Shown here piece after piece: positions 10,255 through 52,424 of a DNA stretch of 64,000 bases. Source of the DNA: Chitinophagales bacterium (lineage in GTDB: Bacteria > Bacteroidota > Bacteroidia > Chitinophagales > Chitinophagaceae); NCBI GenBank assembly GCA_015654695.1, contig JAATGJ010000127.1, positions 62,001 to 126,000 on the forward strand, read 5' to 3'. The notes beneath the pieces are model-generated. The model ran no database searches. It saw nothing but the letters and a program-made list of their open reading frames with translations, and had not been told where the DNA came from. Every line of letters starts with the position of its first letter. The stretch's first letter is position 1. The position numbers and the translations under genes were made by a program.

Positions 10255-12216
10255 ATGACTGAACCTATAAAAATATTAAACCAATACTGGGGCTTTGATG
10301 CCTTTCGGCCCTTGCAGGAAGATGTGATAAATTCCGTGCTGGCAGGTAACGATACATTAGCCTTAATGCCCACAGGCGGTGGCAAATCGCTATGCTACCA
10401 GGTACCTGCATTAGCCAAAGAAGGGATGTGCCTGGTTATTTCGCCGTTGATCGCATTGATGAAAGACCAGGTAGAGAACCTCCGTAAAAAAAATATCACC
10501 GCCTATTCCATTTTTTCCGGCATGAGCCGCAAAGAAGTGATCACTATTTTAAAAACTGTAACATATAGCAATTGTAAATTTCTATATGTATCGCCTGAAA
10601 GATTAGAAACGGCTTTATTCAGGGAATACCTGCCGGGTATGCATATCACCCTTATTGCCGTGGACGAAGCGCATTGCATTTCGCAATGGGGTTATGATTT
10701 CCGGCCTCCCTATTTACGGATAGCCGCGTTGAGAGAAGAATTGCCAGGTGTTCCAATATTGGCGTTGACTGCCTCGGCTACTCCGGATGTGCAGAGAGAT
10801 ATTTGTGAAAAGTTAACCTCACCCCCAGCCCCTCTCCAAAGGAGAGGGGGGCAGACTCCGTTTACCGGAGATTCATTTAATAGTTGGAAAATATTCCGCC
10901 AGTCATTTGAAAGGCCCAATCTTTCGTACAGTGTTTTTAAAGTTGATTCACGTATCAATAAGATCATTGAGATACTCACCAAAGTTCCGGGTACGGGTAT
11001 TGTTTATTGCAAAAGCCGGAAGAGAACAAAAGAAATAAGCGAACTATTACAATTGCAAAATATTTCGGCGGATTATTATCATGCAGGTTTGCTGCAGGAA
11101 GAACGCAACCGCAAACAGGAAGCCTGGATCAATAATAAAATAAGGGTGATCGTTTGCACCAATGCATTCGGTATGGGCATTGATAAACCGGATGTCCGTA
11201 CTGTGATACATGCTGATGTACCCGATTGCCTGGAAAATTATTACCAGGAAGCAGGCCGTGCGGGAAGAGATGGAAAAACGTCGTATGCTGTTCTGTTGTA
11301 CGATGAAAGGGAATTGCAGGAATTAAATGAGATGGTGGCTATTCGTTTTCCTACGCAACTTGATATACGTAATGTTTATCAATCGGTGGCCAATTATTTA
11401 CAGATACCAACAGGCATCGGTGAAGGCGAATATTATGAATTTGATATCGCTGATTTCCTGAAGAAATTCAAGCTTAACAGTCATACCGCTATCTATTCAT
11501 TAAAAACACTGGAGCAGGAAGGCTGGCTTTCTTTTAATGAACAGGTATTCCTGTCTCCCACCATTCAATTCACTGTCACAAAAGATTATTTATACCAGTT
11601 TGAACAAAGCCATCCACTGCTGGAACCCATACTCAAAACATTACTCAGGGCCTATGAAGGAATATTTGATCACACCTGCTTTATATCAGAATTGCAGGTC
11701 GCTCAATTACTAAAGAAACATGTGGATGAAATAAAGCAACAGTTAACCGAATTGAACGCCGCCGGTATCATTGAATACACTCCTAGAAAAGATTCACCCC
11801 AGTTGTACCTGCTGCGCAACCGTATAAAAGCGGAAGATATTTCTATCAATAGGGTAGCTTTTAATCAGCGAAAAGAAAGATTTGAGAAAAGGCTGAAAGA
11901 AATAATGCGCTATATAAAGGAAGAGGCTGAATGCCGCAGCCGGATCATGGGTTCCTATTTTGGTGATAAAAAGATCAGGTCTTGTGGTATCTGCGACAAT
12001 TGCCTGCGTCAAAAAGCAGTCACACTTAGCAAAGAGGAATTTGATTCTATTCACTCCCGTATTCTTGATATTACAAGAAGTGAAAGGCTGCAGATAAAAG
12101 ACCTGATGATAAAATTGAGCGGCATTAAAAAAGAAAAAGCCTGGAAGGTGATTGAGTTCCTCCAGGCAGAAAAAAAGATTGAAACGGATTCGGCCGGTTT
12201 GGTCAGGCTGAAATAA
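10255..12216 (+). CDS. recQ: ATP-dependent DNA helicase RecQ with an in-frame repeat insertion
   Basis: 3'-5' DNA helicase of recombination and replication-fork repair. It has Walker A TGGGKSLCYQ at about 40-50, the DEAH box with the aromatic-rich loop (VDEAHCISQWGYDFRPPY), motif V/VI sequences (TNAFGMGIDKPDVR, YYQEAGRAGRDG), and the RecQ-Ct zinc-binding cysteines (CRSRIMGSYFG..CGICDNC) at about 560-585. No convincing HRDC domain follows; the tail resembles a short winged helix. Residues about 187-203 (LTSPPAPLQRRGG) come from a GC-rich palindromic repeat inserted between the two RecA lobes, just before RQSFERPNLSY. The frame is intact, so the gene is probably functional. Its 3' end overlaps the convergent NTF2-like gene by 14 bases. 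Confidence 0.96.
   Translation: MTEPIKILNQYWGFDAFRPLQEDVINSVLAGNDTLALMPTGGGKSLCYQVPALAKEGMCLVISPLIALMKDQVENLRKKNITAYSIFSGMSRKEVITILKTVTYSNCKFLYVSPERLETALFREYLPGMHITLIAVDEAHCISQWGYDFRPPYLRIAALREELPGVPILALTASATPDVQRDICEKLTSPPAPLQRRGGQTPFTGDSFNSWKIFRQSFERPNLSYSVFKVDSRINKIIEILTKVPGTGIVYCKSRKRTKEISELLQLQNISADYYHAGLLQEERNRKQEAWINNKIRVIVCTNAFGMGIDKPDVRTVIHADVPDCLENYYQEAGRAGRDGKTSYAVLLYDERELQELNEMVAIRFPTQLDIRNVYQSVANYLQIPTGIGEGEYYEFDIADFLKKFKLNSHTAIYSLKTLEQEGWLSFNEQVFLSPTIQFTVTKDYLYQFEQSHPLLEPILKTLLRAYEGIFDHTCFISELQVAQLLKKHVDEIKQQLTELNAAGIIEYTPRKDSPQLYLLRNRIKAEDISINRVAFNQRKERFEKRLKEIMRYIKEEAECRSRIMGSYFGDKKIRSCGICDNCLRQKAVTLSKEEFDSIHSRILDITRSERLQIKDLMIKLSGIKKEKAWKVIEFLQAEKKIETDSAGLVRLK
10818..10852. 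repeat. GC-rich palindromic repeat inside recQ
   Basis: A perfect 9-bp stem (10829-10837 with 10841-10849, CCCCTCTCC and its complement) closes on an AAA loop, preceded by a C-run (10822-10826). It is read in frame as part of RecQ. The same CTCC-AAA-GGAG core occurs at 37181-37213 within leuS. Confidence 0.75.
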
Positions 12217-27897: not shown

Positions 27898-27925
27898 GGA
27901 AGCCGTCCCTGTTGAGACGGCTTCC
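27898..27925 (-). terminator. Terminator downstream of the 1538-residue adhesin gene
   Basis: GGAAGCCGTC (27898-27907) and its complement (27916-27925) form a perfect 10-bp stem with an 8-base loop, 27 bases beyond the stop codon on the minus strand. The following T-tract is weak (TTATTATC), so termination strength is uncertain. Confidence 0.65.
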
Positions 27926-36939: not shown

Positions 36940-39900
36940 TCAAATTACCACATTCACCATCTTCCCTTTTACAAAAATGATTTTTTTCGGTGGCTTTCCT
37001 TCCAGCCATTTCTTTACTATATCATTTTCCAACACCATTTTCTCTACATCGGGTTGCGCGGCATCCAGGGATATATCCATCGTTGTCCGCAACTTTCCGT
37101 TAATAGAGATAGGGTATTCTTTGCTGCTTTCGGCGACATACTTTGCTTCGAAGGTTGGGTAGGTGGCATCAAGTATTGAAGCCTCCCCCAAACCCCCTCC
37201 AAAGGAGGGGGCCTGTCGTAGCTGCGCATACAATTCTTCTGCTATGTGTGGAGCGTAGGGAGCTAACAATATCAATAGTGGTTCCAGTATTTCACGTTTA
37301 TGGCATTTCAGGTCGCTGAGTTCGTTTACGGCGATCATAAAACCACTGACACCGGTATTGAAACTGAAACGCTCTGTATCGCTTTCTATTTTCTTAATTG
37401 TATTATGCAACACTTTCAGTTCCACATCAGTTGCTTTTTCTTCTGTCCATACGGCCCCCTCCAAGTCTCCCCCTCCGGGGGAGACTTGCGAAGACCCCGA
37501 TTCTTTGTAAAATAAACGCCATAATTTTTTCAGGAAACGATGTACACCTTCAATGCCTTTGGTATCCCAGGGTTTACTCATTTCTACCGGGCCGAGGAAC
37601 ATTTCGTACATGCGGAAGGTGTCGGCGCCGTATCTCGCTACCAGATCGTCTGGATTGACAGTGTTGAATTTTGATTTAGACATTTTTTCTATTTCAACAC
37701 CACAGATGTATTTTCCGTCTTCAAGAATAAATTTAGCATTCACATATTCACCGTTTCTCCATTTTCTAAATTCTTGAACGTTTAGTTCAACTCCATCAAC
37801 AATATTTACATCAACATGTAGTTTTATAAGTGAAATAGGAAGATTATCGATTTCACCACTATAATTAAAATAATTGGCAGACACAGTATTTAATAAATCT
37901 ATTAATTCCTGCTTAGTAAGTTCATTGTTTAAATACTTTTCTGCATAACCTGATGAAATAAAAATTTCAGCATCTTCATTTACAATTACCTTTTCCATAA
38001 CACCAAGATGAGGGAAATCCATAAAGCTTATTCTATATACAAATCTTGAACTTCCTTGTATCATTCCCTGATTCACTAACTTCTTATACGGTTCATCATG
38101 TCCGATATAACCAAGATCATACAATGCTTTTGTCCACATACGGCTGTACAGCAAATGTCCTACAGCATGTTCTGTACCTCCAATGTAGAGATCAACCTGC
38201 CCCCAGTAATCAGAAACTTTGCGGTCGCAAAATGCTTTGTCATTATGCGGATCCATGTAACGGAGAAAATACCAGGAAGAACCTGCATAACCCGGCATTG
38301 TGTTCGTTTCCAAATTTTGTGAAGTCCATGTTTTAATATTCGCCAATGGCCCTTCTCCTTCCAGTCCCGGTTTATAGCTATCTACTTCTGGTAACTCCAA
38401 TGGCAATTCGCTTTCATCTAAAGGATAAGCGATACCATTGATCCATTTGATGGGAAAAGGTTCGCCCCAGTAACGCTGGCGGCTGAATGCCGCATCACGC
38501 ATTTTATAATTTATTTTTCTTATGCCAATTCCCAGTTCTTCTATTTTTTTGTTCACTACTTCAATAGCATCACGCATCACCATGCCATTGAGAAAATCAG
38601 AATTTTCCAGTATGGCATCTTTCGTCGGGTTGGCTTCATTACCATCATAATATTTACCAATGATGTTGGTGATGGGAATATTAAAATGCTGCGCAAACTT
38701 ATGGTCGCGTTCATCACCACAAGGTACCGCCATGATAGCGCCTGTACCATACCCTGCTAAAACATATTCCGATATCCAGATGGGTATCGCCTTACCATTA
38801 AAAGGGTTCAATGCATAGGAGCCGGTAAACACACCACTGATCTTTTTCTCCGCCATGCGTTCTCTTTCACTCCGGCTTTTTACATAGGCAATATATTCAT
38901 CAACCGCCTGCTTTTGTTTTTCTGTTGTTATTTCTTCTACCAACTCATGTTCAGGGGCGATCACCATGAAGTCAACGCCAAAGATGGTATCAGGTCTTGT
39001 TGTGTAAACCCTTAGGGGTTCATCGTTTTCTGCTACTGTTTCGCTGATAGCCACCTCCACGATTTTAATGGAAGGGTCATCAGACTTTATATCTCTCCTT
39101 ATTTCAGTTGTTTCCAGCTCCCCGATCCTGATGCTGTAATCTATCTCCGCCCCGCTGCTCTTGCCAATCCAGTTGGTCTGCATTTCTTTCATCGCTTCAC
39201 TGAATTCAATTCTTTCTAATCCTTCCAGTAAACGGTCAGCATATTCTGTTATTCTTAAATACCATTGGCGCAGTTTCTTTTTTACAACGGGATACCCGCC
39301 ACGTTCGCTTACGCCATTCACTACTTCATCATTGGCTAATACTGTTCCCAGCGCTTCACACCAGTTCACTTCGCCGATACCACAATACGCCAGGCGGTAT
39401 TGCATCAATATATCCTGCTGTCTTTTTTCATCAAAACCCTTCCATTGTTTAGCATTGAATTGCTGAATATAATATTGAGTATTGGGCATTGCATATTCAG
39501 CATTTCCTTCTTTTTCAAAAGCGTTGATCAATACCTGTATTCTTTCCGCCTTACCGGCTTTCCGGCTATAAAATGAATTAAACAATTGCAGGAAGATCCA
39601 CTGCGTCCATTTATAATATCCCGGTTTGGATGTATTCACTTCCCTGTCCCAGTCATACGAAAAACCGATCTTGTCAAGCTGGCTGCGGAAGTTGCTGATG
39701 TTAGTTGCTGTTGACACCGCAGGATGAATGCCATGATCAATCGCATATTGTTCAGCAGGCAAACCAAAAGCATCATACCCCATCGGGTGCAATACATTGA
39801 AACCTTTCAATCTTTTGTAACGGCTGTAAATATCTGAAGCGATATAGCCAAGCGGATGGCCTACATGCAGCCCGGCACCGCTTGGATACGGGAACATATC

Positions 39901-40008
39901 CAGCACATAATATTTGGGTTTGGAACAATTATTTTCTACTTTATACGCATTGGATGCCTTCCATCGTTCCTGCCATTTCTTTTCAATATCCCTGAAACTA
40001 TATTCCAT
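36940..40008 (-). CDS. leuS: Leucyl-tRNA synthetase, with two repeat-derived inserts and an AT-rich patch
   Basis: Class I enzyme charging tRNA-Leu. The 1022-residue protein has HVGHPLGYIASDIY (HIGH motif), an editing domain with TTRPDTIFGVDF, EKMSKSKFN at about 775 and the C-terminal anticodon-binding and tail parts. It is longer than the usual 920-950 residues in this phylum. The excess includes a palindrome-coded stretch at about 841-852 (SSQVSPGGGDLEG), another at about 932-943 (APSFGGGLGEA) and a segment of about 130 residues before KMSKS that is coded by visibly AT-rich DNA (about 37680-38066). Frame and motifs are intact, so the enzyme is probably active. Confidence 0.97.
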   Translation of the reverse strand: MEYSFRDIEKKWQERWKASNAYKVENNCSKPKYYVLDMFPYPSGAGLHVGHPLGYIASDIYSRYKRLKGFNVLHPMGYDAFGLPAEQYAIDHGIHPAVSTATNISNFRSQLDKIGFSYDWDREVNTSKPGYYKWTQWIFLQLFNSFYSRKAGKAERIQVLINAFEKEGNAEYAMPNTQYYIQQFNAKQWKGFDEKRQQDILMQYRLAYCGIGEVNWCEALGTVLANDEVVNGVSERGGYPVVKKKLRQWYLRITEYADRLLEGLERIEFSEAMKEMQTNWIGKSSGAEIDYSIRIGELETTEIRRDIKSDDPSIKIVEVAISETVAENDEPLRVYTTRPDTIFGVDFMVIAPEHELVEEITTEKQKQAVDEYIAYVKSRSERERMAEKKISGVFTGSYALNPFNGKAIPIWISEYVLAGYGTGAIMAVPCGDERDHKFAQHFNIPITNIIGKYYDGNEANPTKDAILENSDFLNGMVMRDAIEVVNKKIEELGIGIRKINYKMRDAAFSRQRYWGEPFPIKWINGIAYPLDESELPLELPEVDSYKPGLEGEGPLANIKTWTSQNLETNTMPGYAGSSWYFLRYMDPHNDKAFCDRKVSDYWGQVDLYIGGTEHAVGHLLYSRMWTKALYDLGYIGHDEPYKKLVNQGMIQGSSRFVYRISFMDFPHLGVMEKVIVNEDAEIFISSGYAEKYLNNELTKQELIDLLNTVSANYFNYSGEIDNLPISLIKLHVDVNIVDGVELNVQEFRKWRNGEYVNAKFILEDGKYICGVEIEKMSKSKFNTVNPDDLVARYGADTFRMYEMFLGPVEMSKPWDTKGIEGVHRFLKKLWRLFYKESGSSQVSPGGGDLEGAVWTEEKATDVELKVLHNTIKKIESDTERFSFNTGVSGFMIAVNELSDLKCHKREILEPLLILLAPYAPHIAEELYAQLRQAPSFGGGLGEASILDATYPTFEAKYVAESSKEYPISINGKLRTTMDISLDAAQPDVEKMVLENDIVKKWLEGKPPKKIIFVKGKMVNVVI
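37181..37213. repeat. GC-rich palindromic repeat inside leuS (3' copy)
   Basis: CCCCCTCC (37193-37200), loop AAA and GGAGGGGG (37204-37211) form a perfect 8-bp stem, preceded by a CCTCCCCC run. It codes APSFGGGLGEA in LeuS. The core and loop equal those in recQ, but the repeat is read in the opposite sense relative to the gene. Confidence 0.75.
37452..37495. repeat. GC-rich palindromic repeat inside leuS (5' copy)
   Basis: AAGTCTCCCCC (37463-37473) pairs perfectly with GGGGGAGACTT (37477-37487) over 11 bp around a 3-base loop, with a GGCCCCCTCC lead-in. It codes SSQVSPGGGDLEG in LeuS, between two conserved segments of the anticodon-binding domain region. Confidence 0.75.
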
Positions 40009-40046
40009 TCCTGTTCATTATTTTTTAGTATGCACCCGGCTGATTC

Positions 40047-52389: not shown

Positions 52390-52424
52390 AAAAGTCCGCC
52401 CCGGTAAAACCGGGGCGGACTTTT
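52390..52424 (-). terminator. Strong terminator between the two dehydrogenase-like genes
   Basis: A perfect 16-bp stem (52390-52405 and 52409-52424, loop AAA) flanked by A-run/T-run, 22 bases past the stop codon at 52446 on the minus strand. It separates the 1143-residue gene from the 637-residue gene, which therefore has its own promoter. Confidence 0.92.

Follow-up and report, generated by a model that had tools for sequence, protein, structure and literature searches.

The window, as we call the whole stretch of 64,000 nucleotides that was analysed, contains recQ on its forward strand (10255-12216) and leuS on its reverse strand (36943-40014), both with in-frame palindromic inserts. The recQ gene encodes an ATP-dependent DNA helicase of 653 residues, identified from its open reading frame, the Pfam domains DEAD, Helicase_C, and RecQ_Zn_bind, and the PDB RecQ structures 4tmu and 1oyw. 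tblastn alignments of relatives delimit an insert of 57 nt at 10816-10872, on the same strand as the gene, which encodes T188-D206 (TSPPAPLQRRGGQTPFTGD). Within it lies a perfect hairpin with 9-bp arms (CCCCTCTCC/GGAGAGGGG) and an AAA loop (10829-10849), the stretch being translated as LTSPPAPLQRRGG from L187 onward. The hairpin is preceded by the 5′ foot AACCTCACCCCCAG (10815-10828) and followed by an inner part, CAGACTCCGTTTACCGGAGAT (10852-10872), recognized by sequence comparison. The insert falls between Pfam DEAD (residues 18-179) and Helicase_C (234-340), at the junction of the two RecA lobes. An earlier note on this DNA had described the hairpin as in frame and placed between the lobes, where ordinary RecQ proteins have a short loop, and we confirmed both points: the loop has 26 residues here versus 7 in G002 and G005, two genomes of the same genus. 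The extent that it gave (10818-10852) was right as to frame and position and too small, the true insert covering 19 residues.

The leuS gene, for leucyl-tRNA synthetase, is open over 1024 codons and has two in-frame palindromic inserts; Pfam recognizes Anticodon_1 and tRNA-synt_1 in the 3′ part of the gene. We were able to score these elements with R1, a covariance model built from 20 copies of the palindrome in this genome (solo copies and one end of the aroC cassette described below), which matches the recQ element at 10815-10850 with 53.1 bits. The window's second in-frame copy, at 37180-37212, has the element on the forward strand and the gene on the reverse strand, encodes APSFGGGLGEAS, and is matched by R1 with 33.2 bits (E 3.6e-5). 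The third in-frame insert, at 37453-37500 on the reverse strand (TCGGGGTCTTCGCAAGTCTCCCCCGGAGGGGGAGACTTGGAGGGGGCC), is a near match to the right end, with inner flank, of the leuS DUF559 cassettes found in G005 and G019. Its R1 score is weak (13.2 bits) because it is of another sequence type.

Chance is not a good account of the recQ hairpin. When up to three mismatches are allowed, the pattern of its 21-mer has a single occurrence in the window and none in 100 dinucleotide shuffles, and GC-rich hairpins with arms of at least 9 bp occurred once across ten block-shuffled windows. The real window has five with arms of at least 8 bp, three of them being the recQ insert and the two leuS inserts. 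RNA folding of the recQ hairpin stretch gave z = -2.45. Two other strong GC-rich hairpins, at 27898-27925 and 52390-52424 (arms of 10 and 16), are outside the recQ-palindrome family and are possibly terminators.

The recQ loop and the copies of its palindrome

The 57-nt insert is absent from G002, G005, and most Chitinophagaceae, and 47 of the about 70 recQ genes that were compared have a loop of 21 nt. Inserts of one type occupy this position in the present genome (G000), in G003, and in G264; the last belongs to another genus, and its two sisters, G137 and G213, are both empty at the site. The hairpin arms are identical in the three genes and the loops differ (AAA, ATAAAT, and CTTCGG). G147 has in its recQ loop a palindromic scar with two feet, different in sequence type and apparently of independent origin. 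Judging from these alignments, the patchy distribution would fit repeated insertion at a preferred spot, loss not being excluded.

A search of the genome at the DNA level revealed more than 30 places related to the recQ palindrome, and R1 gave 30 places at E ≤ 0.014, two of which are the ends of one cassette, in aroC; these genome-wide figures rest on searches and on individually retrieved loci. Of the about 28 non-cassette copies, 15 were mapped to Pfam-supported genes, 8 are intergenic, and 5 are uncertain (gene ends or short ORFs). The hosts are recQ, the gene for a CO-dehydrogenase-like FAD subunit, paaC, thyA, aroA, an Lhr-like helicase gene, a DNA polymerase III subunit gene, ftsZ, a poly(A) polymerase-like gene, and those for a nitrilase and a GH9/deacetylase, as well as leuS, the gene for an FAD-dependent protein, purN, and nadE. 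The intragenic copies are found on both strands and in several frames, with peptides such as LTPNPSPGERG, TSPPTPLQEERG, SPSNSLSKGEGG, and APSPSGERVGGEV, besides that of leuS. The palindrome pattern is present in 27 of 101 relative genomes, its reversed control being nearly absent. One copy, L022 (G000:C90:2158-2213), is apparently split between foot and arm by a different hairpin, CTCCCGCTCCAGCGGGACAAG, and looks like an element that received a second one.

The two outcomes that would have refuted the earlier note, namely the presence of the same residues in all related RecQ proteins or the lack of other copies of the DNA, did not occur: many copies were found by DNA search and covariance model, and insert-free recQ homologues are found within the genus. 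Its idea that a mobile palindrome has become a segment of RecQ is thus supported, with mobility itself inferred. The exaptation that it also proposed, in the sense of a gained function of the peptide, is not shown, and a tolerated insertion is the simpler reading.

Could the insert be merely a hypervariable RecQ loop that drifted to a palindrome-like, C-rich sequence without any mobile element? Loop length does vary among relatives, from 21 to 117 nt, several long loops having no palindrome. This reading is already contradicted and can be given virtually no credence: the genome has about 30 occurrences of the 35-nt sequence, both intergenic and in genes unrelated to each other, the chance expectation of the pattern is nil, and the reversed control is nearly absent from the 101 genomes. 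The palindrome could also be a regulatory hairpin of RNA or DNA that is selected in place, such as a terminator, an mRNA stabiliser, or a recombination signal, with its coding incidental. The identity of the recQ arms in the three genomes despite their differing loops would suit such a role, as would the 8 intergenic copies out of 28. We consider it improbable, as most copies are intragenic, in either orientation and in different frames, the distribution in relatives is patchy, and no known RNA family was found by Rfam in the window.

Palindrome-bounded DUF559 cassettes

In relatives, inverted pairs of the palindrome enclose an ORF for a DUF559 protein. In the full cassette a DUF559 nuclease is encoded by a central part of about 150 codons, with the foot CCTCACCCC and a hairpin before it and a hairpin and the inverted foot after it; short linkers separate each hairpin from the nuclease (about 110 residues). 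The feet and hairpins are translated as flexible linkers rich in Pro, Gly, and Ser (LTPNPSPKERG, SPPTPLQRRG, PSFGEGLGVR). The 5′ foot of the recQ element matches the outer inverted repeat of the cassette (CCTCACCCC/GGGGTGAGG), and the stretch CAGACTCCG of the recQ insert resembles a segment inside the hairpin of the aroC cassette of this genome (TCAGACTCCGATA, reverse strand), a short match that is supportive only. Moreover, when applied to other genomes, R1 detects the ends of their DUF559 cassettes, so that the palindrome has what is required of a MITE or cassette remnant, ends in common with an autonomous element; the same holds for the leuS insert at 37453-37500, which matches the ends in G005 and G019.

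Four DUF559 matches were found in this genome, one splitting aroC and another cinA. The aroC cassette keeps the frame within an ORF of 504 residues and is flanked by R1 palindromes. In relatives, DUF559 splits aroC, leuS (at two sites), metG, metH, cinA, and an M23 peptidase gene, and in Pfam the chorismate synthase, CinA, MetH, and LeuRS domains are those found split. A scan of public genomes, giving 80 named Bacteroidota DUF559 loci, added ileS, purL, recG, icmF, paaZ, a DEXH helicase, and an alpha-xylosidase to the hosts. Some host positions are used repeatedly, with 17 loci near residue 295 of leuS, 11 near 624 of ileS, 8 near 800 of metH, and 6 in aroC. One leuS ORF of 1315 codons (L162/L180, G020:C90) carries two different cassettes at two sites, and one metH ORF from a Flavobacterium sp. 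MAG (L243) has two DUF559 domains. For the Lhr-like helicase, a claim of insertion at the same site had to be rejected, since about 40 residues of that protein separate the solo copy of this genome from a Mucilaginibacter cassette. A phage origin was likewise rejected, with only three distant phage matches, all below 42% identity. No clear target-site duplication was seen.

A GC-rich perfect hairpin was found within 160 bp on each side in 45 of the 78 DUF559 loci that could be tested, versus 4 of 1167 control positions taken at random in the same loci (Fisher p = 3e-56); a perfect 7-bp hairpin is missing on one or both sides in the remaining 33. The left and right ends within a cassette are more alike than the ends of different cassettes (p = 6e-15), and palindrome and DUF559 co-occur across the 101 relatives (p = 1.4e-4). 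Some DUF559 genes have other surroundings. Stand-alone genes (L181, L182, L186, L188, and others) lie between palindromes of a different type, CCCCTAAA..GGGGGACTTT, which suggests a separate end sequence for every nuclease subtype. In L205, L227, L240, and L258, from Prevotella and uncultured Prevotellaceae, DUF559 is near the start of the ORF, with about 180-205 residues downstream and CCCCTCCC palindromes. Finally, a stand-alone gene in L173 (G087:C4) sits amid tandem units of the CACCCCTCTCCATGAATGGAGAGGG type, an array and not a pair.

These figures bear on whether the solo palindromes form an independent REP-like or MITE-like family, served by another enzyme such as a RAYT/Y1 transposase, with which the DUF559 cassettes have borrowed or recombined. 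Solo copies do outnumber cassettes, 14 Y1_Tnp (PF01797) matches are present in this genome, and intragenic REP insertions are known (PMC3733652). Palindromes are also found without DUF559 in G046 (12 pattern matches) and G002 (1); those of G046 include inverted pairs spaced by 213-241 bp that enclose no DUF559 and may be emptied cassettes. Against this, the CTCTCC..GGAGAG hairpin was found in the examined flanks of none of the 14 Y1_Tnp loci, so that a RAYT was rejected as the partner enzyme, and it is DUF559 loci, 45 of the 78, that have hairpins on both sides, with ends that match within a cassette. An independent family remains possible and is, in our judgement, unlikely.

The measured aroC and leuS cassettes have 477-564 nt, always a multiple of three, and are stop-free in one frame; a cassette thus sits inside the housekeeping gene, whose protein is read from end to end with the cassette included. 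That the host enzyme stays active is inferred. It might be argued that the cassette is removed after transcription or translation, by an undescribed splicing or ribosome bypass, leaving mature enzymes without it: the terminal inverted repeats could form a stem that excludes the nuclease, and aminoacyl-tRNA synthetases could be expected to suffer from long insertions. A removed element would not need to be stop-free or a multiple of three, as all measured inserts are. Furthermore, Pfam scans of 8 cassette-bearing proteins revealed no Hint splicing domain of inteins, and no RNA family reached the gathering score of Rfam in 12 cassette loci. With no intron match there and inserts open in frame, a group I or II intron was rejected, and removal of any kind seems to us very improbable.

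Three allele states were identified at each of two orthologous sites, in aroC and leuS. The aroC linker between conserved blocks is empty, with 9-30 nt, in most genomes; it holds a full cassette (477-510 nt) in G000, G001, G003, G005, and G026, and a scar of 60 nt in G009, TTAGACCTCACCCCCAACCCCTCTCCACAGGAGAGGGGGGTAGGGGGTGAGGTCAATAAA, with one hairpin and both feet. Going by its layout, this scar is as expected if two hairpins had recombined. In leuS the empty state has 30-57 nt in most genomes, the full cassette 495-564 nt (G005, G019, G020, and G035), and the scar 69 nt (G003); the linkers of G000 (126 nt) and G001 (114 nt) are longer, without palindrome. All of these states, at both sites, are multiples of three without a stop. 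The coexistence of occupied and empty alleles at one conserved site, a criterion for homing endonucleases, was observed in aroC and leuS. The recQ insert is different: it comprises a single foot with a portion of the inner segment, which makes it a solo end and not a collapsed cassette, and the leuS insert at 37453-37500 likewise matches a cassette end together with its inner flank. No full cassette was found in Chitinophagaceae recQ genes in a search of 296 genomes of the family, and the long recQ ORFs retrieved (738, 756, and 772 residues) have none in the insert-bearing loop. The step from cassette to recQ insert therefore rests on the similarity of the ends, and the origin as a solo end is inferred.

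The nuclease itself is under purifying selection, pN (0.10-0.27) being well under pS (0.73-0.86) in pairwise comparisons of the aroC-embedded copies; as pS is near saturation, no exact ratio is given. In 45 DUF559 sequences 13 columns are invariant, including D46, E57, D59, and H63. The predicted model (pLDDT 85) has as its best PDB fold match 3hrl (DUF559-like), followed by I-Bth0305I (3r3p, E 2.6e-4) and, weakly, Vsr. DUF559 has been placed with Vsr-like nucleases (PMC12907096), and a DUF559 gene has been assigned to the EDxHD homing endonuclease family (PMC9403480). Fold and conserved acidic residues meet the criterion for an EDxHD/Vsr-like homing endonuclease, as far as a predicted structure allows, with cleavage inferred. 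Grouping of the DUF559 relatives follows the host site more closely than chance would give (19 label changes versus a shuffled mean of 38.4 and minimum of 33), which suits homing and also vertical inheritance.

Origin of the recQ insert and comparison with known systems

Combining these data, we propose as the probable explanation that the recQ palindrome is the solo end of a family of palindrome-bounded, unspliced homing-nuclease cassettes that are read through in host genes of Bacteroidota. The cassette would sit at an inter-domain loop of a housekeeping gene whose protein is read straight through. The nuclease, produced within the host enzyme, would cut uninterrupted alleles, and repair of the cut allele would copy the cassette in. 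The palindromic ends may be the substrates of this homing reaction; such use of the hairpins, like the mobility of the cassette, is inferred. Loss of the middle of a cassette would leave a two-foot scar, as in aroC and leuS, or a one-foot end, as in the recQ insert. One-foot solo copies are the commonest form and are not explained by a collapse of the aroC/leuS type; such ends may also have moved in trans, as REPs are moved by their transposases. A broader claim, that these cassettes represent a class of selfish elements of Bacteroidota in which protein compatibility replaces splicing, and in which a palindrome-bounded cassette, placed in frame at loops between the domains of essential enzymes and produced with the host protein, copies itself into empty alleles and sheds solo ends that become permanent protein segments such as that of RecQ, we regard as evenly poised.

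No prior account of palindrome-bounded DUF559 cassettes was found in the literature searched, which was limited to open-licence full text without preprints. Judged by title and abstract, none of the open-licence papers mentioning DUF559 is apparently on such cassettes, and no paper was found there for element peptides such as PSPKERG. Coding palindromic repeats have been known since the work on Rickettsia, with no nuclease-bearing parent found in that literature. The cassettes offer such a parent, and their intermediate states, at orthologous sites of ordinary environmental bacteria, lend themselves to testing; the cassettes also explain the odd "DUF559" domains annotated in tRNA synthetases, methionine synthase, and other core enzymes.

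The earlier note had likened the recQ repeat to the Rickettsia palindromic elements (RPEs), a likeness that holds by analogy of behaviour and not for sequence or family; we do not claim membership. We know of no nuclease-coding parent cassette identified for RPEs, whereas the recQ-type unit is linked to one. Both are short palindromic repeats in frame in many unrelated genes; RPEs form translational fusions with host ORFs (PMC10969869, PMC3733652), and the palindrome here has about 30 copies in the genome (E ≤ 0.014), in-frame positions in 15 Pfam-supported hosts, and insert-free recQ orthologues. RPEs differ in phylum and in size, with about 150 bp versus about 35-57 nt for the recQ-type unit.

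With the REP/RAYT system (REPtron) the family shares a footed hairpin, scattered solo copies, and a related inverted pair flanking a nuclease gene. It differs in that the nuclease is DUF559 (Vsr/EDxHD-like) and not an HUH Y1 enzyme, and in that cassettes and solo copies are largely intragenic. Neither REPtron criterion is met: no GTAG or CGTC tetranucleotide was seen at the foot of the hairpin, which is CCTCACCCC, and a Y1 HUH transposase gene flanked by the repeat was found at none of the PF01797 loci, in the flanks examined. Intragenic REPs have been described in frame in DNA repair and replication genes (PMC3733652), and such hosts recur here (recQ, recG, the Lhr-like helicase, and the DNA polymerase III subunit gene). 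The repeat family and the associated enzyme are different, and many hosts here are tRNA synthetases and biosynthetic enzymes.

Finally, the cassette shares with EDxHD homing endonucleases (I-Bth0305I) and Vsr-like nucleases the fold of the catalytic domain, together with occupied and empty alleles in conserved genes. It differs in that DUF559 has no intron or intein carrier and lies bare in the host protein, bounded by palindromes, its cleavage activity being inferred. Inteins are likewise nuclease-bearing in-frame elements of conserved enzymes; the cassette differs from them in having no Hint domain, the non-nuclease parts of its 160-190-residue insert being short linkers. If homing is confirmed, this would be a selfish in-frame nuclease that does without introns and inteins and from which new protein segments arise.
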